A stretch of DNA of 64,000 nt from Cryomorphaceae bacterium. Lineage in GTDB: Bacteria; Bacteroidota; Bacteroidia; Flavobacteriales; Schleiferiaceae. Positions 32,652 to 64,000 of the stretch are shown here, in pieces. A program made the translations under genes and the position numbers. Below the pieces are notes generated by a model. The model saw only the letters and a list, made by a program, of their open reading frames with translations. It was not told the origin of the DNA and made no database searches. The DNA is taken from contig WTIZ01000021.1 in NCBI GenBank assembly GCA_011525035.1, forward strand, positions 1-64,000, given 5' to 3'. The stretch's first letter is position 1. The number at the start of each line of letters is the position of its first letter.

Positions 32652-33357
32652 CTAACAAATTGTGTTTGTCCCGCTCGTATTCAGCGATTAATACCTTGAT
32701 GTCCGATTCTAAATCGTTCAACTGTGTTACGTCTAAAACATCATAAGAGCCTACAATGTTTCCTAGATCATCTTTTCTACTGCGAATGTTCCCATTCCAA
32801 TCCACAATGATGGCATTGGTACTGTGTAAGAATCCACCTTCGGCAGTTTGGTCTTCAAAGGCATTTAGGAACAAGCTTTTTGCCAAATCATAAATCGGCT
32901 CCTTCTCACCTGTAGCAAAAAGCCACTTACCTTCTCTGTAATTGCGTTCTTTCTGATAGGTCGCCAATGCTTGTACAGAATCCTTTTCGGGATCCACAGT
33001 AATGCTTAGCAGCTTAAAGTCTGGATATCCCTTAAAACGACTCTCAATGTCATTGAGATGAAAGTTCATAGCTGGACAAATCGTGGGACACGTTGCAAAA
33101 AAGAAACTCACTACATAGATGGTGGAGTCCATGGTAGTTTTATTCACGGGTGTTCCCTGCGCACTAAGAAGTTCAAAGTCTGGTATTTCGTAGTAAATAG
33201 TATCTCCACTTTCCTCATCATACACCTTCTCTCCTACATAATCTAGGGTCTGAAAGAATACTTCGTTCTGTCCGTAAACAAAGATGATGTAAACTAAAGC
33301 GGGTAGCACTAATACTGCGATTAGTGCTACCCGTTGAAATACTGTTATCGCTTTCAT
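32644..33357 (-). CDS. SCO1/SenC-family copper chaperone
   Basis: A 237-residue, membrane-anchored thioredoxin-fold protein that delivers copper to, or reduces, the CuA site of oxidase subunit II. After one helix (residues 9-28), the copper ligands are C90 and C94 (FATCPTICPAMN) with H178 (GFLHSTNAIIVDW). The phrase LLSITVDPEKDS is typical. Its start overlaps the coxIV stop (TAATG). Substrate in this window would be the CoxII at 57368. Confidence 0.94.
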   Translation of the reverse strand: MKAITVFQRVALIAVLVLPALVYIIFVYGQNEVFFQTLDYVGEKVYDEESGDTIYYEIPDFELLSAQGTPVNKTTMDSTIYVVSFFFATCPTICPAMNFHLNDIESRFKGYPDFKLLSITVDPEKDSVQALATYQKERNYREGKWLFATGEKEPIYDLAKSLFLNAFEDQTAEGGFLHSTNAIIVDWNGNIRSRKDDLGNIVGSYDVLDVTQLNDLESDIKVLIAEYERDKHNLLDD

Positions 33358-55541: not shown

Positions 55542-57344
55542 CTAGTGACCGCTCTCCTCTCCTTCTGCCAATGGCACGTTTTGAGGAACGAAATCTTCCT
55601 CAGCACCAGGCTTAGAGTAGTCGTATGCCCAACGGTACACTACTGGTATATCACCTGGCCAGTTACCGTGGATGTGCTCTACAGGAGTTGTCCACTCTAG
55701 AGAGTTACCTCTCCAAGGATTTTGCTTCGCCTTAGGACCTCTCCAAATGCTGTAGAAGAAGTTAAAGATGAAGATCAACTGTGCAGCACCACCGATGATG
55801 GCAAAGTAGGTAATCAATACATTGATATCCGCCAAATTATCGAACATTGGGAATGCCGTGTTGCTGTAGTAACGACGTGGCAAACCTGCCATACCCAAGA
55901 AGTGCATTGGGAAGAATACACCGTAAGCGGTAATAAAGGTCAACCAGAAGTGCGCATAACCCATTGATTTATTCATCATACGGCCGTACATCTTAGGGAA
56001 CCAGTGGTATACCCCTGCGAACATTCCGTAAATCGCACTCAGACCCATTACAATATGGAAGTGAGCGACTACGAAGTAGGTATCGTGAACGTTGATATCC
56101 AAAGCACTGTCACCAAGAATAACACCTGTCAAACCACCAGTAACGAACGTACTAACCAATGCAATTGAGAAGAGCATTGCTGGCGTGAACTGGATGTTCC
56201 CTTTCCAAAGTGTAGTTATGTAGTTAAAGGCTTTAACTGCTGATGGAATCGCAATCAATAGGGTTGTGAAGGTAAATACAGAACCTAGGAACGGGTTCAT
56301 ACCTGTTACGAACATGTGGTGACCCCATACGATAAAGCTCAAGAAAGCAATTGCCAAAATTGAACCTACCATCGCGCGGTAACCAAAGATTGGCTTACGT
56401 GAGTTTGTCGCAATTACCTCAGATGAAATACCCAAAGCAGGTAGAAGAATAATGTATACCTCAGGGTGACCCAAGAACCAGAACAAGTGCTGGTACAATA
56501 CAGGAGAACCACCGCTGTAGCTCAATACCTCACCACCCATGAAAATATCACTGAGGTAGAATGAAGTACCCAACATACGGTCAAACATCAAAAGCAATGC
56601 TGCACTAAGAAGTACAGGGAAAGAAAGTACCCCTAGAACTGCTGTTACAAAGAATGCCCAAATCGTCAATGGCAGACGCGTCATGCTCATCCCTTTTGTA
56701 CGCATGTTTAATACGGTTACGATGTAGTTCAATGAACCCAATAGTGACGATACAATGAACAATGTCATCGAGATCAACCAAAGCGTCATACCCGCGCCTG
56801 AACCCGGCATTGCTTGTGGAAGTGCAGAAAGAGGTGGGTATACAGTCCAACCGGCTGCTGCAGGTCCTGATTCAACGAACAATGACACTACCATTATTAC
56901 AGAACTGGTAAAGAAGAACCAGTATGAAAGTGCATTCATAAAGCCAGAGGCCATATCACGTGCACCAATCTGCAATGGAATAAGTAGGTTCGAGAAAGTA
57001 CCTGATAGACCCGCAGTCAATACGAAGAATACCATAATGGTACCGTGAATAGTTACAAGAGCCAAATAGATGTTTGGATCCATCACACCGTCAGGTGCCC
57101 ATTTACCCAAGAAGAACTCAAGGATTGGGAAACTTTGCTCAGGGTATGCAATCTCCAAACGGAAAAGCATTGACATCATCACACCGATGATACCCATGAT
57201 CATACCGGTAATCAAAAACTGCTTACCAATCATCTTATGGTCCATCGTAAAGAGGTACTTCGTGAAGAAGTTCTCCTCGTGGTGGTGCTCCATCAAGTGA
57301 TCTTGGAAGTGATTGTTTTTTTCTGTTGTCGTTGTAGTTGACAT
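55542..57344 (-). CDS. Cytochrome c oxidase subunit I
   Basis: A 600-residue oxidase catalytic subunit with at least twelve helices holding heme a and the heme a3-CuB centre. CuB and heme ligands are visible in WFLGHPEVYILLLPALG (with the His-Tyr crosslink pair), WGHHMFVTGMNPFLG and VHDTYFVVAHFHIVMG. The N-terminal MEHHHEENFFTKYLFTMDHK is common in Bacteroidota. It is the last gene of the act-cox unit, 24 bases after coxII. It receives electrons from CuA of CoxII and reduces oxygen to water. Confidence 0.97.
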   Translation of the reverse strand: MSTTTTTEKNNHFQDHLMEHHHEENFFTKYLFTMDHKMIGKQFLITGMIMGIIGVMMSMLFRLEIAYPEQSFPILEFFLGKWAPDGVMDPNIYLALVTIHGTIMVFFVLTAGLSGTFSNLLIPLQIGARDMASGFMNALSYWFFFTSSVIMVVSLFVESGPAAAGWTVYPPLSALPQAMPGSGAGMTLWLISMTLFIVSSLLGSLNYIVTVLNMRTKGMSMTRLPLTIWAFFVTAVLGVLSFPVLLSAALLLMFDRMLGTSFYLSDIFMGGEVLSYSGGSPVLYQHLFWFLGHPEVYIILLPALGISSEVIATNSRKPIFGYRAMVGSILAIAFLSFIVWGHHMFVTGMNPFLGSVFTFTTLLIAIPSAVKAFNYITTLWKGNIQFTPAMLFSIALVSTFVTGGLTGVILGDSALDINVHDTYFVVAHFHIVMGLSAIYGMFAGVYHWFPKMYGRMMNKSMGYAHFWLTFITAYGVFFPMHFLGMAGLPRRYYSNTAFPMFDNLADINVLITYFAIIGGAAQLIFIFNFFYSIWRGPKAKQNPWRGNSLEWTTPVEHIHGNWPGDIPVVYRWAYDYSKPGAEEDFVPQNVPLAEGEESGH

Positions 57345-57367: not shown

Positions 57368-58393
57368 TTACAGTGTCTCAGCGACGGTTTTTTGTTCTTT
57401 TAACCAAGCGTCGAATTCATCTTGAGTTTCAACGACGATGTCCATTTGCATGTTGTAGTGTGCAGCACCACAAATCTTGTTACAAAGGAGTACATAATTG
57501 AAATCCCAAACGTCTTCGCCTTTGGCTTTTCTAATCTCGTTTACTTCCTCAACGTGCGCTTTTACGTCTTTGTTCTGACGAATTTCCGCTGTCGTAATGG
57601 TCGGTGTAAACTGGAAGTTCGTTACCGATCCAGGAACACAGTTCATTTGTGCACGGAAGTGCGGGAAGTAAGCAGAGTGAATAACGTCCTGCGAGCGGAA
57701 AGCAAACTGGATTGGCTTGCCCACTGGTAGGTGTAATTCTTTGGCGATAATATCATCTGCAGAAGCTGGATCTTGAGTATCAACACCCACGATGTTCGCA
57801 CCTGCAATTTCATGCACTGTTGCATAACCCAACTCGTTGTCGCCACCACTGTAACGAACGGTCCAGTTGAACTGCTGCGCATATACTTCTACGAGAATTG
57901 GCTCTTCTTCATTCTCAGGCATCATCAATGTGCTCCACACGTTCAGACCCCAGATGATCAATACTGCCAATGCAAGCGCAGGAACCATAGTCCAGAATAG
58001 CTCAAGACGGTTGTTGTGCTCGTAGTAGGTAGCTTTAGTTCCTTTCTTGCCTCTGTACTTGTACGCGAAGTAGAAAAGGATTGGCTGTACAATAAAGAAA
58101 ACGATGTTGATGATCAACATACTTAGGTTCCATAGGCTATCAATCTCTGCACCGTGTGCTGAAGATGGTTCTGGAAGACTGTGTCTTCCCCATGCGATGT
58201 ACATCACTACAACGCTGATGATAAAACCGAAACCTACCAATAACATTAGACGCCCTTGGGTGTCATTGTCCTTTGGACTTACCTCGTTGTCTTTGCCTTT
58301 CTGAATTTCAGAAGAAATCTCAGAGATTCTCATCACCTGTACCAAGGTGAGGATGACTAAAACAACTAATACTATGATTGAAACTGCACTCAT
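57368..58393 (-). CDS. Cytochrome c oxidase subunit II
   Basis: A 341-residue subunit with two helices (plus an extra N-terminal hydrophobic segment) and a periplasmic cupredoxin domain. The CuA ligands are seen in VIHSAYFPHFRAQMN and LLCNKICGAAHYNMQM (Cys, Cys, His, Met). The electron-entry region VEVYAQQFNWTVRY is typical. There is no C-terminal heme-binding CxxCH, so it is an aa3 type rather than a caa3 type. SCO (32644) would supply copper. It lies between actF and coxI. Confidence 0.96.
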   Translation of the reverse strand: MSAVSIIVLVVLVILTLVQVMRISEISSEIQKGKDNEVSPKDNDTQGRLMLLVGFGFIISVVVMYIAWGRHSLPEPSSAHGAEIDSLWNLSMLIINIVFFIVQPILFYFAYKYRGKKGTKATYYEHNNRLELFWTMVPALALAVLIIWGLNVWSTLMMPENEEEPILVEVYAQQFNWTVRYSGGDNELGYATVHEIAGANIVGVDTQDPASADDIIAKELHLPVGKPIQFAFRSQDVIHSAYFPHFRAQMNCVPGSVTNFQFTPTITTAEIRQNKDVKAHVEEVNEIRKAKGEDVWDFNYVLLCNKICGAAHYNMQMDIVVETQDEFDAWLKEQKTVAETL

Positions 58394-58412: not shown

Positions 58413-59846
58413 TTATTGATGGAAGTTTTTAGACTCCGTTAGCATTGGGTGGTTCTTGTGCAACAATGGCGCCTTAGCCACTGATGATAGAACTACGTAG
58501 ATGTACAATCCGGCGAAGAATAGAATTGGACCCAATTCTACCAAACCAAAGCCGTAGTGATCACCTACCGTACCCGGCATAATCATAACGTAGTGGTCCA
58601 TGTAGTGACCCACTAGAACAAATACAGCAGCCATAACTACAGTACCTGGAACACGCTTCGCTGGACGGCTTAAAACAGCCAAAACAGGAAGGATGAAGTT
58701 CAATACCAACATAGTGAAGAACGGTACTTTGTACTGCTCGAAACGTTGCATGTAATAGGTTACCTCTTCTGGAATGTTTGCGTACCAAATAAGTACGAAC
58801 TGAGAGAACCACAGGTAGGTCCAGAATACAGAGAATGCGAACATGAACTTACCCAAATCGTGCAAGTGGTTTTCGTTTACCCACTCCAAATGACCTTGAC
58901 CTTTCAAGTAAAGCGTCAAAAGGATTAATGCAGCGAAAGAGCTCACGAACATACCTGCAAAGGTGTACCAACCGAATAGCGTAGAGAACCAGTGCGTATC
59001 AATAGACATCACTAAATCCCATGCACTTGTCGATGATGTTACTGCGTAGAATACTGTAAATGCAGCTGCAACACTGCGGTTCTTTTTCCACATTGCAACC
59101 CCGTCGCCAGTATCTGAAAGCAAAGAATTCTTACGAAGAACCTTAGCAGCCCAAATCCAACCACCGATGTAGATAAGGATACGAATGGTAAAGAACAATG
59201 GGTTCAAGAATCCACGCTTACCAGCAATGATTGCATCGTAGTTCTCGTGGCCTGGAACATTGATTCCCTCAACCATCCAGTGGAACATGTGGTGTACATG
59301 CCCAAATCCAAGGAAAGTGATTAGTGCGATTACAATTAATGGTGCGACAATAGCAAAAGATTGCGCCTCCATTAATCTCAGAAGACCAGCAGACCATCCT
59401 GCTTGTGCTACATATTGAATACCTAGGAAGAACAATTGTCCCAAACCTAGACCCAAAAAGAAGAAAGCCGCTACATACAATGCAGACCATGGACGGTTTG
59501 CAATTTGATGTGCTGCATGCTCCGCATGTGCATCGTGATCGCCATGTGCTTCTTCAGCATGTGCATCATGACCGTGGTCAGCATGCGCCTCCTCAGCGTG
59601 TGCTTCGTGACCGTGATCGTCGTGCGCTTCTTCAGCGTGTGCGTCGTGACCGTGGTCGTCGTGCGCTGCTTCAGCGTGTGCATCATGACCAGCATCGGCA
59701 TGCATTTCAGTAGCATGCGCGTCGTGACCGTGTCCCGCATCGTGAGATGACGAACCATTTAGGGCAAATCCAACGACCCAAAGGATAGCACCTACTACCG
59801 TAAGTGCGATTGCCAATTGTTTTGTCTTTGTTTTAAACTCAAACAT
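58413..59846 (-). CDS. actF: Alternative complex III subunit ActF with expanded His-rich repeat
   Basis: A 477-residue membrane subunit of alternative complex III, the quinol:cytochrome c or quinol:oxidase oxidoreductase that replaces bc1 in many Bacteroidota. Residues 11-30 form a first helix, and nine or so further helices lie from 118 on (RPWSALYVAAFFFLGLGLGQ; SSTSAWDLVMSIDTHWFSTL). Between them, residues 35-113 are a His/Asp/Ala/Glu-rich stretch with 24 histidines, built from a 13-residue repeat. Short His-rich segments occur in other ActF proteins, but this one appears enlarged. It is placed between actE and coxII. Confidence 0.93.
   Translation of the reverse strand: MFEFKTKTKQLAIALTVVGAILWVVGFALNGSSSHDAGHGHDAHATEMHADAGHDAHAEAAHDDHGHDAHAEEAHDDHGHEAHAEEAHADHGHDAHAEEAHGDHDAHAEHAAHQIANRPWSALYVAAFFFLGLGLGQLFFLGIQYVAQAGWSAGLLRLMEAQSFAIVAPLIVIALITFLGFGHVHHMFHWMVEGINVPGHENYDAIIAGKRGFLNPLFFTIRILIYIGGWIWAAKVLRKNSLLSDTGDGVAMWKKNRSVAAAFTVFYAVTSSTSAWDLVMSIDTHWFSTLFGWYTFAGMFVSSFAALILLTLYLKGQGHLEWVNENHLHDLGKFMFAFSVFWTYLWFSQFVLIWYANIPEEVTYYMQRFEQYKVPFFTMLVLNFILPVLAVLSRPAKRVPGTVVMAAVFVLVGHYMDHYVMIMPGTVGDHYGFGLVELGPILFFAGLYIYVVLSSVAKAPLLHKNHPMLTESKNFHQ
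59508..59744 (-). repeat. In-frame 39-bp tandem repeat coding the ActF His-rich segment
   Basis: About five and a half copies of a 39-bp unit code for HGHDAHAEEAHDD-like blocks (13 residues), with single-residue variation between copies. The GC-rich repeat also opens false reading frames on the plus strand. Confidence 0.85.
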
Positions 59847-59861
59847 TTCTACTCTGCGGTT

Positions 59862-60422
59862 TTATTCTTGATCAGCTCTAAGTTTCACAACGTAACGAAC
59901 GATTTTCCAACGCTCGTCGTAAGTAAGTTGTGAAGCATGTGAACCCATGATTCCTTTACCGTGCATAATTACATGGTACATAGAACCAGGAGTAATATCT
60001 GGTAGTCTTGAAGATGCATACGAAGGAACACCCAAGATTTTCTCTTGCATTACCAAAGGACCGTTACCGTCTCCTTTCTCACCGTGGCAGTGGTCACAGA
60101 AGATGTTGTACAATTCTTTTCCTTCAGCTAGCGCTTCTTCAGAATCGAATTCTGTTGGAAGTGCCAAGGTGGTGCGCGCAGCTTCATATCCTTCATTGCT
60201 GTTTGCAAATTCGTAAGGGTGGTACCCGCGCGGTACAGTACCTTCAACAGGTAGCTGAGCGCTTAGACCATTTGCAAATTGAGCAGAAGGCTCATACGTT
60301 TCAAGAGATGGGCTCTGGTACATGTCGTCCATGTACGTGTAACCCGGTGTTGATTTATCGAAGTTACAGCTAGCGAGTGCGGCTGAAGCTGTAAGCACTA
60401 TGATGGTAGTAATTCTTTTCAT
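59862..60422 (-). CDS. actE: Alternative complex III subunit ActE, monoheme cytochrome c lipoprotein
   Basis: A 186-residue cytochrome c. The N-terminus is a lipoprotein signal with LASC at residue 19. The heme site is C109-D-H-C112-H113 (NIFCDHCHGEKGDGNG), with methionines in GSMYHVIMHGKGIMGSHA as candidate axial ligands. The N-terminal YMDDMYQSPSLETYEPS segment is typical of ActE. It is 15 bases from actF and one base from actD. It should pass electrons from the Act complex to the oxidase. Confidence 0.95.
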   Translation of the reverse strand: MKRITTIIVLTASAALASCNFDKSTPGYTYMDDMYQSPSLETYEPSAQFANGLSAQLPVEGTVPRGYHPYEFANSNEGYEAARTTLALPTEFDSEEALAEGKELYNIFCDHCHGEKGDGNGPLVMQEKILGVPSYASSRLPDITPGSMYHVIMHGKGIMGSHASQLTYDERWKIVRYVVKLRADQE

Positions 60423-60423
60423 C

Positions 60424-60957
60424 TTATGCTTCGACTTTTGAAATTTCTAGAGCACCCAATTCTTGGAGCTTCTTAGTTAAATCTGCCTCTTCTCCCTCAA
60501 GTTCAACTTCCATTAGGAAATGATCGTCTGTGGTACGAGGATCAGGGTTCTGTGCTTTAGCACCTGGATATAGCTTGTTTACTGCGAAGTAAGACCAGCA
60601 CATCAAGTGCGCAGCGAAGAATACAGTCAACTCAAACATTACAGGAATGAATGACGGCATATTTAAGAACCAATATGCATTTGGCTTACCACCGATGTTT
60701 TGTGGCCAATCCAAGGTCATCGTGTAGTACGTCAACCATGAGGCGAAAAACAAACCGGTCAAACCGTAGAAGAATGCAGCTGTACTCAAGCGAGTTCTTT
60801 TAAGACCCATTGCTTCGTCCAATCCGTGGATTGGGAACGGAGAATAAACCTCACTCACGTGGTAACCGTTAGAACGGAGATCTTTTACAGCGCCCAATAC
60901 GACATCGTCGTCATTGAATAGCGCGCGTACAATAGGATTGTGTTTAGTGTGCCCCAT
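60424..60957 (-). CDS. actD: Alternative complex III subunit ActD (DUF3341)
   Basis: A 177-residue membrane subunit with two helices. DVVLGAVKDLRSNGYHVSEV followed by YSPFPIHGLDEAMGLKRTRL is the DUF3341 signature of ActD. The C-terminus is a hydrophilic tail (DPRTTDDHFLMEVELEGEEA). The start was set at ATG 60957 (MGHTKHNPIV), which overlaps the end of actC by 14 bases; upstream codons in the same frame would run further into actC. Confidence 0.93.
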   Translation of the reverse strand: MGHTKHNPIVRALFNDDDVVLGAVKDLRSNGYHVSEVYSPFPIHGLDEAMGLKRTRLSTAAFFYGLTGLFFASWLTYYTMTLDWPQNIGGKPNAYWFLNMPSFIPVMFELTVFFAAHLMCWSYFAVNKLYPGAKAQNPDPRTTDDHFLMEVELEGEEADLTKKLQELGALEISKVEA

Positions 60958-62332
60958 GCTCGTCGTGGTGTTTTTTGAAGTTTTCACCTGAAGACTTCAA
61001 GATGGTTTTCAATTCAGCTTGTGCAATTACTGGGAACGTTCTAGCGTAAAGCAGGAACAATACAAAGAAGAACCCGATAGTACCGATATAAATACCGATG
61101 TCAACAAAGGTTGGAGAGAACATAGACCATGAAGATGGCAAGTAATCTCTGTGGATAGAGGTTACGATAATCACGAAACGCTCGAACCACATACCGATGT
61201 TTACAACGATTGAAATCACGAAAGTGAAAATCAAGTTTGTACGAAGTTTCTTCGACCACATGAACTGTGGAGAGAACACGTTACAAGTCATCATCGACCA
61301 GTATGCCCACCAGTAAGGACCGGTTGCTCTATTCAAGAACGCATATTGTTCGTATTCAACACCAGAGTACCAAGCGATGAAAAGCTCAGTGATGTAAGCA
61401 ACACCTACGATAGAACCTGTAACCATAATTACAATGTTCATCATCTCAATGTGCTCGATGTTGATGTAATCTTCCATTTTGAAGATCTTACGTACAATCA
61501 AGAGAAGCGTCTGTACCATCGCGAATCCTGAGAAGATCGCACCGGCAACGAAGTACGGTGGGAAGATGGTGGTGTGCCATCCTGGAATCACAGAAGTTGC
61601 GAAGTCAAACGATACAATCGTGTGTACAGAAAGTACAAGTGGCGTTGCTAGACCTGCAAGTACCAATGATACTTCTTCGAAACGCTGCCAGTGCTTAGCC
61701 TGACCGCCCCATCCGAAAGAAAGAATCTTATAAATGTGCTTTTGTACTGGGTTGATTGCACGGTCGCGAATCATTGCGAAATCTGGAATCAAACCAACGT
61801 ACCAGAACACAGTACTTACAGTTAGATAGGTCGAGATCGCAAATACATCCCAAAGAAGTGGTGAATTAAAGTTCACCCAAAGTGAACCGAATTGGTTCGG
61901 AATAGGCATTACCCAATAAGCCATCCAGATACGACCCATGTGGATCAACGGGAATAGACCCGCTTGAATAACTGAGAAGATAGTCATTGCCTCTGCCGAG
62001 CGGTTAATAGCCATTCTCCACTTCTGACGGAAGAGAAGAAGTACCGCAGAAATCAATGTTCCCGCGTGACCAATACCTACCCACCAAACGAAGTTGGTGA
62101 TATCCCAGGCCCAATCAACAGTTTTATTAAGTCCCCAAACACCGATACCGGTACCAATAGTGTATAGGATACATCCTACACCCCATAGGAACATGACAAA
62201 TGCGATAGAGAAGGCAATCCACCACGCACGTGGTGCTTTTGACTCTACCGGTTTCGCTATATCATTGGTGATGTCTGAGTAAGACTTATCTCCAAGAATG
62301 AGCGGATTTCTAACAGGCGATTCGTAATGCAT
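60944..62332 (-). CDS. actC: Alternative complex III subunit ActC (NrfD/PsrC-like)
   Basis: A 462-residue quinol-binding membrane subunit with ten helices, of the NrfD/PsrC family. Typical stretches are WWVGIGHAGTLISAVLLLFR, GLFPLIHMGRIWMAYW, and SVHTIVSFDFATSVIPGWH. The C-terminus is His-rich (KKHHDEHGAH). It starts 16 bases after actB and overlaps actD. It takes electrons from menaquinol and passes them to the iron-sulfur clusters of ActB. Confidence 0.96.
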   Translation of the reverse strand: MHYESPVRNPLILGDKSYSDITNDIAKPVESKAPRAWWIAFSIAFVMFLWGVGCILYTIGTGIGVWGLNKTVDWAWDITNFVWWVGIGHAGTLISAVLLLFRQKWRMAINRSAEAMTIFSVIQAGLFPLIHMGRIWMAYWVMPIPNQFGSLWVNFNSPLLWDVFAISTYLTVSTVFWYVGLIPDFAMIRDRAINPVQKHIYKILSFGWGGQAKHWQRFEEVSLVLAGLATPLVLSVHTIVSFDFATSVIPGWHTTIFPPYFVAGAIFSGFAMVQTLLLIVRKIFKMEDYINIEHIEMMNIVIMVTGSIVGVAYITELFIAWYSGVEYEQYAFLNRATGPYWWAYWSMMTCNVFSPQFMWSKKLRTNLIFTFVISIVVNIGMWFERFVIIVTSIHRDYLPSSWSMFSPTFVDIGIYIGTIGFFFVLFLLYARTFPVIAQAELKTILKSSGENFKKHHDEHGAH

Positions 62333-62348: not shown

Positions 62349-64000
62349 TTAGGCTCTGTTTCTAACTTTAGTCTGGTAGAACACGCTAGGCTGTGTACCT
62401 ACTTCCTCCAATAGGTGGTATGCACGTCCTTGTTGCTTCAAGTGGCTTACCTCGCTATCCGGGTTGTTCACGTCTCCGAAAACGATGGCATTCGATCCAC
62501 ATGCTTGTGCACAAGCAGTGGTGAATTCACCGTCAGTCAACATTCTACCGTCTTTCTTCGCTTCTAGTTTACCCAATTGGATACGCTGGATACACAAAGA
62601 ACACTTCTCGATCACACCACGTGCTCTTACCGTTACGTCTGGGTTCAATACCATACGTCCGTAATCGTCTTGTGATGGGTTTACATCGGCAAATTTCTCA
62701 TTGCCCTTGTAGTTGAACCAGTTGAATCGACGCACTTTGTACGGACAGTTGTTCGCACAGTAACGCGTACCGATACATCTGTTGTAAGCCATGTGATTCA
62801 AACCTTCTCTCGAGTGAACAGTAGCACCTACAGGACATACAGTTTCACACGGAGCATGGTTACAGTGCTGACACATTACCGGCTGGAATACTACCGATGG
62901 GCTCTCAGAAGGAACTTCCATCTTCGCGTATTTCTCAATAGCACCGATACCTTCTTCTTCAGCTCTTTCAGCTGTCATTTCTGAAGAGTAGTAACGGTCA
63001 ATTCTCAACCAGTGCATATCGCGGTGGCGACGAACCTCGTCTTTACCTACCACAGGCACGTTGTTTTCCAACGAACATGCAACAACACAAGCACCACAAC
63101 CTGTACACGAGTTCAAGTCAATAGACATGTTCCACATGTGTGAGGTTTCGTGATCGTGATCGTCCCATAGATTCGCTTCAAAGGCACTCAAAGGACCTCT
63201 GTGCGTCTCGAACGTTGGCTTTTCATTCCACTCCTCGTGACTAACATTCATGAAAGTTGGAAGTGAAATTTCATTTACGATTTTACGTCCCATCATCGTA
63301 TGTGCCAACTGCACTGATGCAAAGCCGTGCTCAACTTCAGAAGCTGAAGCGCTTACCTCAGTACTTACTGCTGCTGAGGCTGGAAGTAATGTATTGGCAT
63401 TAACACCAATACCGTTACCGACCTTACCCACTGCAGTACGACCAAAACCAACTGCAAGACCTAAGGTCCCCATCGTTTGTCCTGGCTGGATCCATACTGG
63501 AACGTTTTCTAGTGTGTTACCGTCAACCGTAATGTTTAGTGTATTACCCGTCATCGCACCGTTTGACTCTGGAGCTACTTCGATACCAAGTTCTACAGCA
63601 TCAGCAGCAGACATAGTAATGTAGTTGTCCCAAGACAAGCGTGTGATTGGATCTGGCAATTCGTACGTCCATGGGTTATTGGCGTTTTCGCCAGCACCCA
63701 TACCCGTTTTAGTATATGTATAGAATTCAAGTCCTGATTGAGGCTTCATCACATTGATTCCGCTCACGTCAATCATACTCGCATCCATAGAACCGTTCAT
63801 GCTTACTTCAGCAGCTGCCGTAGATGCAAAGCCGTCGTGAAGAAGTGCGTTCCAAGAAGTAGAACCAGCATTTGCAGCGGCACTTGCTTCTACCAAAGCT
63901 TTCGCGCTTTCTGAACCTCCGGCCAATGCATTCACAATCTCAACAGCGCTTTTACTGTCGAAAAGAGGACTAATGGTCGGTTGACCTACTGCATAGTGAC
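62349..64000 (-). CDS. actB: Alternative complex III subunit ActB, iron-sulfur part (5' end beyond window)
   Basis: The C-terminal roughly 550 residues of ActB are visible; the frame stays open to the right edge (residues reading YAVGQPTISPLFDSKSAV at the border), so the gene is cut by the window. The left part of this fragment is the end of the molybdopterin-oxidoreductase-like domain, which in ActB holds no cofactor. The remainder is a ferredoxin-like domain with four cysteine groups: CTGCGACVVACSLENN, CQHCNHAPCETVCPVGA, GTRYCANNCPYKVRRF and KCSLCIQRIQLG, with a final ACAQAC. These bind three [4Fe-4S] and one [3Fe-4S] clusters in known complexes. actA, the multiheme cytochrome, would lie further right. 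Confidence 0.95.
   Translation of the reverse strand, partial: HYAVGQPTISPLFDSKSAVEIVNALAGGSESAKALVEASAAANAGSTSWNALLHDGFASTAAAEVSMNGSMDASMIDVSGINVMKPQSGLEFYTYTKTGMGAGENANNPWTYELPDPITRLSWDNYITMSAADAVELGIEVAPESNGAMTGNTLNITVDGNTLENVPVWIQPGQTMGTLGLAVGFGRTAVGKVGNGIGVNANTLLPASAAVSTEVSASASEVEHGFASVQLAHTMMGRKIVNEISLPTFMNVSHEEWNEKPTFETHRGPLSAFEANLWDDHDHETSHMWNMSIDLNSCTGCGACVVACSLENNVPVVGKDEVRRHRDMHWLRIDRYYSSEMTAERAEEEGIGAIEKYAKMEVPSESPSVVFQPVMCQHCNHAPCETVCPVGATVHSREGLNHMAYNRCIGTRYCANNCPYKVRRFNWFNYKGNEKFADVNPSQDDYGRMVLNPDVTVRARGVIEKCSLCIQRIQLGKLEAKKDGRMLTDGEFTTACAQACGSNAIVFGDVNNPDSEVSHLKQQGRAYHLLEEVGTQPSVFYQTKVRNRA

Follow-up and report, generated by a model that had tools for sequence, protein, structure and literature searches.

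Many bacteria use alternative complex III (ACIII) in place of cytochrome bc1, and according to a 2021 review the role of two of its subunits, ActD and ActF, has still to be revealed (PMC8308186). The question addressed here was raised by a stretch of 64,000 nucleotides from a Cryomorphaceae bacterium (contig WTIZ01000021.1; this whole stretch is called the window), in which the gene for ActF carries a run of histidine-rich tandem repeats: is this run a product of slippage, or a feature maintained by selection, and what might the histidines do? The initial annotation of this DNA proposed that the segment may buffer copper or zinc near the Act-oxidase supercomplex.

The gene does encode the ActF subunit of ACIII. 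The top PDB match of its product is ActF of F. johnsoniae (6btm_F; E 2.2e-131 over residues 3-476, phmmer), and the predicted model of the protein matches the same chain with E 3.4e-24 and TMt 0.93, the five best chains all being ActF (Foldseek). A search with ActF returned no Pfam family at E 0.001, including the NrfD model which ActC does match, and a Pfam NrfD match was not counted as a defining feature of ActF. ORFs, Pfam and homology place the genes on the minus strand of the window in the order ActB (partial)-C-D-E-F-CoxB-CoxA (Table 1), and CoxB has the motif CNKICGAAHYNM, which we take to be of the CuA type. The association with an oxidase recurs in all 80 named loci (the best 80 of 587 matches), where actF is followed directly on the same strand by coxB and coxA, no gap exceeding 190 bases. 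Just past the window, in the same genome, lies a gene for a protein with six CxxCH motifs (L234:1371-2639), taken as ActA by its place upstream of actB; F. johnsoniae likewise has six, against the five hemes reported for R. marinus.

Table 1. Features of the actF locus, in window positions.
Feature	Positions	Strand	Basis
coxA, oxidase subunit I	55542..57344	-	PF00115, E 1e-137
coxB, oxidase subunit II, presumed CuA-type motif CNKICGAAHYNM	57368..58393	-	ORF, Pfam
actF, alternative complex III subunit F, 477 aa	58413..59846	-	ORF; phmmer; Foldseek
TM2, predicted helix, residues 118-147	59406..59495	-	AlphaFold2
Predicted short helix, residues 101-116, HGDHDAHAEHAAHQIA, directly before NRPW of TM2	59499..59546	-	AlphaFold2
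His-rich segment, residues 35-113, 24 His of 79	59508..59744	-	Translation
Wider 39-nt tandem array	59534-59690	-	Tandem Repeats Finder
Three clean 39-bp tandem units, HGH[DE]AHAEEAH[DAG]D, residues 65-103	59538..59654	-	Sequence comparison
TM1, predicted helix, residues 6-32	59751..59831	-	AlphaFold2
actE, mono-heme cytochrome c	59862..60422	-	PF13442, E 3.4e-12; name from gene order and homology
actD	60424..60987	-	PF11821, E 5.8e-59
actC, NrfD-like quinol subunit	60944..62332	-	PF03916, E 7e-19; name from gene order
actB, 3' part, iron-sulfur cluster domains, runs off the window	62349..63998	-	Fer4 families; name from gene order

The residues named in the initial annotation map exactly to window 59744-59508, and its count of 24 histidines is right; the segment holds a further 23 Ala, 13 Asp and 10 Glu and is devoid of Lys, Arg and Cys. 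That the segment is repetitive also stands, but the figure of about 5.5 copies was loose: Tandem Repeats Finder gives 4.0 copies of a 39-nt period with 83% match, and three 13-residue units are clean. Pairwise, these three agree at 30-33 of 39 bases (77-85% at the DNA level), and the near-identity between copies that slippage had been thought to exploit is absent.

A genome-wide bias towards histidine was considered and rejected. Our survey covered 216 ORFs with a length of 100 aa or more, taken longest first with overlaps below 60 bases, from 274 kb (the window and 20 stretches, about 14% of the assembly); histidine amounts to 2.0% of residues overall, and ActF is the sole outlier, with 13 histidines in its richest 40-residue stretch against six in the next-best protein. 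An assembly artefact is unlikely, given equivalent loops in independent assemblies and in named isolates. The N-terminal 120 residues of ActF contain no known domain above the curated cut-off. Proteins whose histidine repeats bind heme are known elsewhere, and the repeats could bind free heme or serve as a docking site for a periplasmic factor that assembles the six-heme ActA, a reading for which the cytochrome c domain of ActE and the CxxCH motifs of ActA would offer a setting. Heme is not singled out by the data, however, and a comparison of the segment with PDB sequences gave no match at E 1 or below; we consider this very improbable.

According to an AlphaFold2 model (13-row alignment, mean pLDDT 75.8), ActF residues 33-103, between the first two helices, are predicted to be disordered (pLDDT below 50). 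The form HxxHxxxN[RK]P[WY] marks the end of the loop and the start of TM2 in 60 of the 80 named loci (best 80 of 587 matches). Lysine residues precede and open TM1, so that by the positive-inside rule the N terminus would lie inside. Both termini of R. marinus ActF are described as cytoplasmic in a passage of PMC5928083, and with one transmembrane helix ahead of it the TM1-TM2 loop should therefore face the periplasm, a placement that draws on knowledge of the family.

Given a locus with such an unusual composition, its distribution among relatives could be examined at several taxonomic depths. Within the genus, 21 of 25 genomes gave an ActF match, and 19 of these 21 loci could be scored (the other two start inside the gene); their loops span 64-133 residues with 15-32 histidines. 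Repeat number and length thus vary among relatives, as had been predicted, and the relatives share neither one length nor one sequence. The rest of the family contributed 57 loci from 56 of the 63 genomes searched (L099 repeats L038), and at least eight histidines were found in 49 of the 56 scorable loci, the repeated locus included. In other families of the order at least eight histidines are present in nine of 19 loci, and six of the 19 have none. Named loci, taken as the best 80 of 587 matches and hence biased to near relatives, with about 12 duplicating genomes already counted above, have at least eight histidines in 78 of 80 cases; their loops have a median length of 71 residues (14-137) and no Cys. 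The top named relatives among these 80 are Flavobacteriales bacterium UBA5939, at 98% identity, and two Schleiferiaceae genomes, at 83% and 78%.

Beyond the order the loop dwindles. Forty loci from other parts of the class have a median loop length of 6.5 residues, even though 13 of the 40 were chosen for long reading frames so that long loops are over-represented; four have at least eight histidines, six have 4-7, 20 have 1-3 and ten have none. In other classes of the phylum, all 20 loci sampled from 38 matching genomes have loops of 0-2 residues without histidine. The loop is a trait of a whole lineage rather than a local expansion, and is not peculiar to the strain of the window.

A strict tie between the loop and the adjoining oxidase was rejected, as three Flavobacteriales loci (L180, L181 and L184) keep the order actF-coxB-coxA without the loop; with the same oxidase genes present in these loci, the loop is not essential for the oxidase. 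A very reduced genome of the same order (G051; L098 and L185, on a contig of 0.34 Mb) retains actC-actD-actE-actF with no histidine in the ActF loop, and shows no coxB-coxA within the 11 kb examined. Four loci from three other families of the order (L082, L088, L094 and L095) have ActF loops of 78-101 residues with only 6-13 histidines; these share parts such as HAKxQRPW-like ends, and perhaps represent a folded insert at the same place.

The nearest structurally characterized counterpart is F. johnsoniae ActF (6btm_F), which is the same protein with a His-rich TM1-TM2 loop of its own at the same position, ending in HxxHQLQNKPW. In strain CI04 (L120) that loop has 13 histidines in 75 residues and no clean tandem units, as against the 24 histidines and 39-bp units of the window. 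F. johnsoniae is a laboratory strain in which a functional act gene system is available (PMC8552683). Chain F of 6btm has 402 residues modelled out of a 464-residue sequence, and the 62 unmodelled residues, which may include the His-rich loop, would fit a loop that escaped modelling. ActF of R. marinus (6f0k_F) and of the Chloroflexota ACIII (8k9e_F, 6lod_F) is homologous to the window protein in core and fold, but the alignments begin at window residue 124 and there is no counterpart of the His-rich loop. We could not find a description of the loop in the open-access literature on ACIII or on His-rich periplasmic respiratory loops, although the F. johnsoniae structure paper may contain one; it goes unmentioned in passages of PMC5928083, PMC8076601, PMC8552683, PMC8308186, PMC8286838, PMC9406181 and PMC8361435. 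Taken across these genomes, the His-rich loop is a real feature of many Flavobacteriales ACIII, and its composition is conserved.

The repeats themselves are not. Repeat-unit size differs freely by lineage (5, 8, 11 or 13 residues), and every unit has histidine: at the position of the ActF loop, L041 has 12.6 copies of a 15-nt unit (protein unit ATEAH), L043 has units of 15/30 nt, L047 has 4.3 copies of 33 nt, L010 has 5.0 copies of 24 nt and L017 has units of 24/48 nt. The expansions in different lineages look independent. Each began from a loop that already contained histidine, so that the presence of histidine in every unit is not by itself evidence of selection. The suggestion that slippage would alter repeat length between strains finds weak support: length variation is seen between species, the genomes being one per species, whereas L002 and L003, at 99% and 98% protein identity, have a loop of the same length as the window. 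Elsewhere in the window clade, the loops of L004 and L005 are 7 residues shorter than those of L001-L003.

Whether the histidines are retained beyond what such turnover would leave was addressed through sister pairs. As aligners favour the matching of histidines, the residue under test was replaced by X before alignment and scored afterwards. A tree of 154 distinct ActF cores supplied every sister pair whose cores are 80% identical or more, 39 disjoint pairs in total. Histidine is the best retained of the seven residues tested in the loop (460 of 635), compared with Asp (142 of 314), Glu (270 of 528), Ala (346 of 713), Gly (155 of 332), Ser (106 of 243) and Thr (49 of 171). Set against Asp, which has codons of the same degeneracy, retention of histidine is higher in 33 pairs, tied in three and lower in three (sign test, p 2e-7), and this contrast, which is new here, holds both among pairs of unnamed relatives (273/376 vs 98/202) and among those that include a named locus (187/259 vs 44/112). 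In proteins at large histidine mutates less readily than Asp, and some of the difference may stem from that; the protein core, where the two are retained equally (400/437 vs 395/431), shows no such contrast. When residues are pooled into classes the gap to histidine is narrower than for single residues: over 38 pairs, 455 of 630 histidines were retained (72%), 843 of 1259 Ala/Gly/Ser/Thr (67%) and 467 of 786 acids (59%).

Codon changes were counted in six near-ungapped pairs, two further overlapping pairs being excluded from the sum. At His codons 28 changes are silent and 2 are replacements, against 59 and 60 at the remaining loop codons (Fisher, p 6e-6). Under neutrality, each silent change at a His codon should be accompanied by 3-8 replacements, a figure that varies with transition bias. 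In L001, L002 and L003 all 24 histidines are invariant across 7 silent changes. Eleven equal-length Flavobacterium loops gave no significant effect (9:6 for His vs 60:64, p 0.43). Without L149, a sequence of equal length and different internal arrangement that was dropped after the result had been seen, all 13 histidines are invariant (7:0 vs 53:39, p 0.04).

These counts bear on the simplest alternative, that the loop is neutral low-complexity sequence generated by replication slippage and is His-rich merely because its ancestor was. The lineage-specific tandem units and the freely varying length are what such a process would yield, and the Flavobacterium set agrees with it until L149 is removed. 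Against it stand the depletion of His-codon replacements as silent changes accumulate, and the retention of histidine above Asp in most sister pairs. Since histidine is kept above the rest of the loop while the repeats are rebuilt, neutral slippage probably does not explain everything, and as a full account we rate it as quite improbable. From these comparisons it is the histidines, and not the exact sequence, that look to be selected, which would make the ActF loop a clear case of conserved composition without conserved sequence, and the best-kept histidines point to a testable extra function for ActF.

The fate of the acidic residues helps to weigh two functional alternatives. In one, a long polyanionic loop would act as an electrostatic tether, steering either ActE or the mobile cytochrome c domain of ActA from one complex to another, for which the acidic hinge proteins of bc1 complexes provide an analogy. 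The 23 Asp/Glu of the window loop, with no Lys or Arg, would suit this role, and the putative ActA of this genome resembles that of F. johnsoniae in its six CxxCH motifs; for the latter, PMC8552683 describes a sixth-heme domain that is mobile. A tether, however, would be expected to keep its charge above its histidines, the opposite of what was found, and in R. marinus, according to PMC5928083, ActF sits at the periphery and makes minor contacts with ActB and ActD. This role we regard as rather improbable.

In the other, clustered histidines and carboxylates by the outer mouths of the proposed ActF/ActC proton paths would serve as a proton buffer or antenna, spreading released protons along the membrane. 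A periplasmic half-channel has been proposed in ActF (in a passage of PMC5928083). The pairing of histidine with acids in a loop free of Lys and Arg, and the preferential retention of histidine, are consistent with such a role, but the acids are retained less than histidine as a class, and loop-less lineages still have the homologous core. The pKa of histidine lies near 6.5, and at neutral to slightly alkaline pH most histidines are unprotonated, which also counts against a proton buffer; we consider it unlikely.

Spaced histidines with Asp/Glu, an absence of Cys, and disorder resemble divalent-metal-binding loops, and for this reason reversible binding of Cu2+ or Zn2+ by the ActF loop, on the outer side of the ACIII-aa3 supercomplex, was ranked first, as the best, though tentative, explanation, and one that may well prove wrong. 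The disordered, strongly acidic and His-rich TM1-TM2 loop would lie in the periplasm, and tandem duplication would have lengthened it on several occasions within Flavobacteriales; selection would maintain the histidines above their exact spacing or neighbours; the many His/Asp sites would bind Cu2+ or Zn2+ reversibly and weakly; and the supercomplex would in this way keep or buffer divalent metal on its outer side. If so, the loop would offer a built-in means, needing no tag, of studying how a respiratory supercomplex handles metals.

Loops of this kind have precedents. ZnuA, a periplasmic zinc protein, has a His-rich disordered loop. In PA4063, also periplasmic, loops that are disordered in the apoprotein contribute to zinc coordination (as described in part of PMC8561739). 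Both are soluble metal-trafficking proteins, whereas the ActF loop sits on a subunit of a respiratory complex and is a candidate metal-binder. Histatin 5, in which Zn2+ binds distinct His-rich motifs (a passage of PMC6571702), is like the ActF loop in its disorder and spaced histidines, and unlike it in being a salivary peptide from an unrelated setting.

The case for copper in particular is thin. The copper context consists of the CuA motif of CoxB and two Sco-type proteins in the window genome, one with a SCO1/SenC-type domain (75 bits; window 32788-33180, minus strand) and a second on contig C14. Any link between the ActF loop and the loading of the oxidase copper sites would likewise be conjectural. 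A search of 60 genomes found PCuAC, the periplasmic copper donor, in only one, and the 41 most complete genomes all lack it. Its absence extends to relatives of both kinds, those that have the loop and those that do not, so that the loop as a substitute for PCuAC finds no support. The sole match (G022:C73:1492-1818) comes from a genome that is 72% complete, and is perhaps foreign or contaminating. A bolder version of the metal-binding explanation has Flavobacteriales ACIII doubling as a periplasmic metal store, in which the repeat-rebuilt, His-rich ActF loop would hold copper beside the oxidase and feed or protect CuA/CuB where PCuAC is mostly absent; this we regard as doubtful.

Some short segments recur within the otherwise drifting loops. 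A segment close to DYPGEAHAAMIES is present in L006-L011, L013, L015-L018 and L021 of the genus and in L057 from another genus of the family (G092), with two copies in L006 and L015 and a second copy in altered form in L007; neither the window clade (L001-L005) nor L012 and L014 have it. L137 and L166 contain EAHAAMIHS, a shorter sequence that resembles it. Another group within the family (L028-L030, L054-L055, L058-L064 and L066) has a conserved loop segment of its own, approximately YHKxASRAxPENNHFY with variants, which sits between the His-rich part and TM2.
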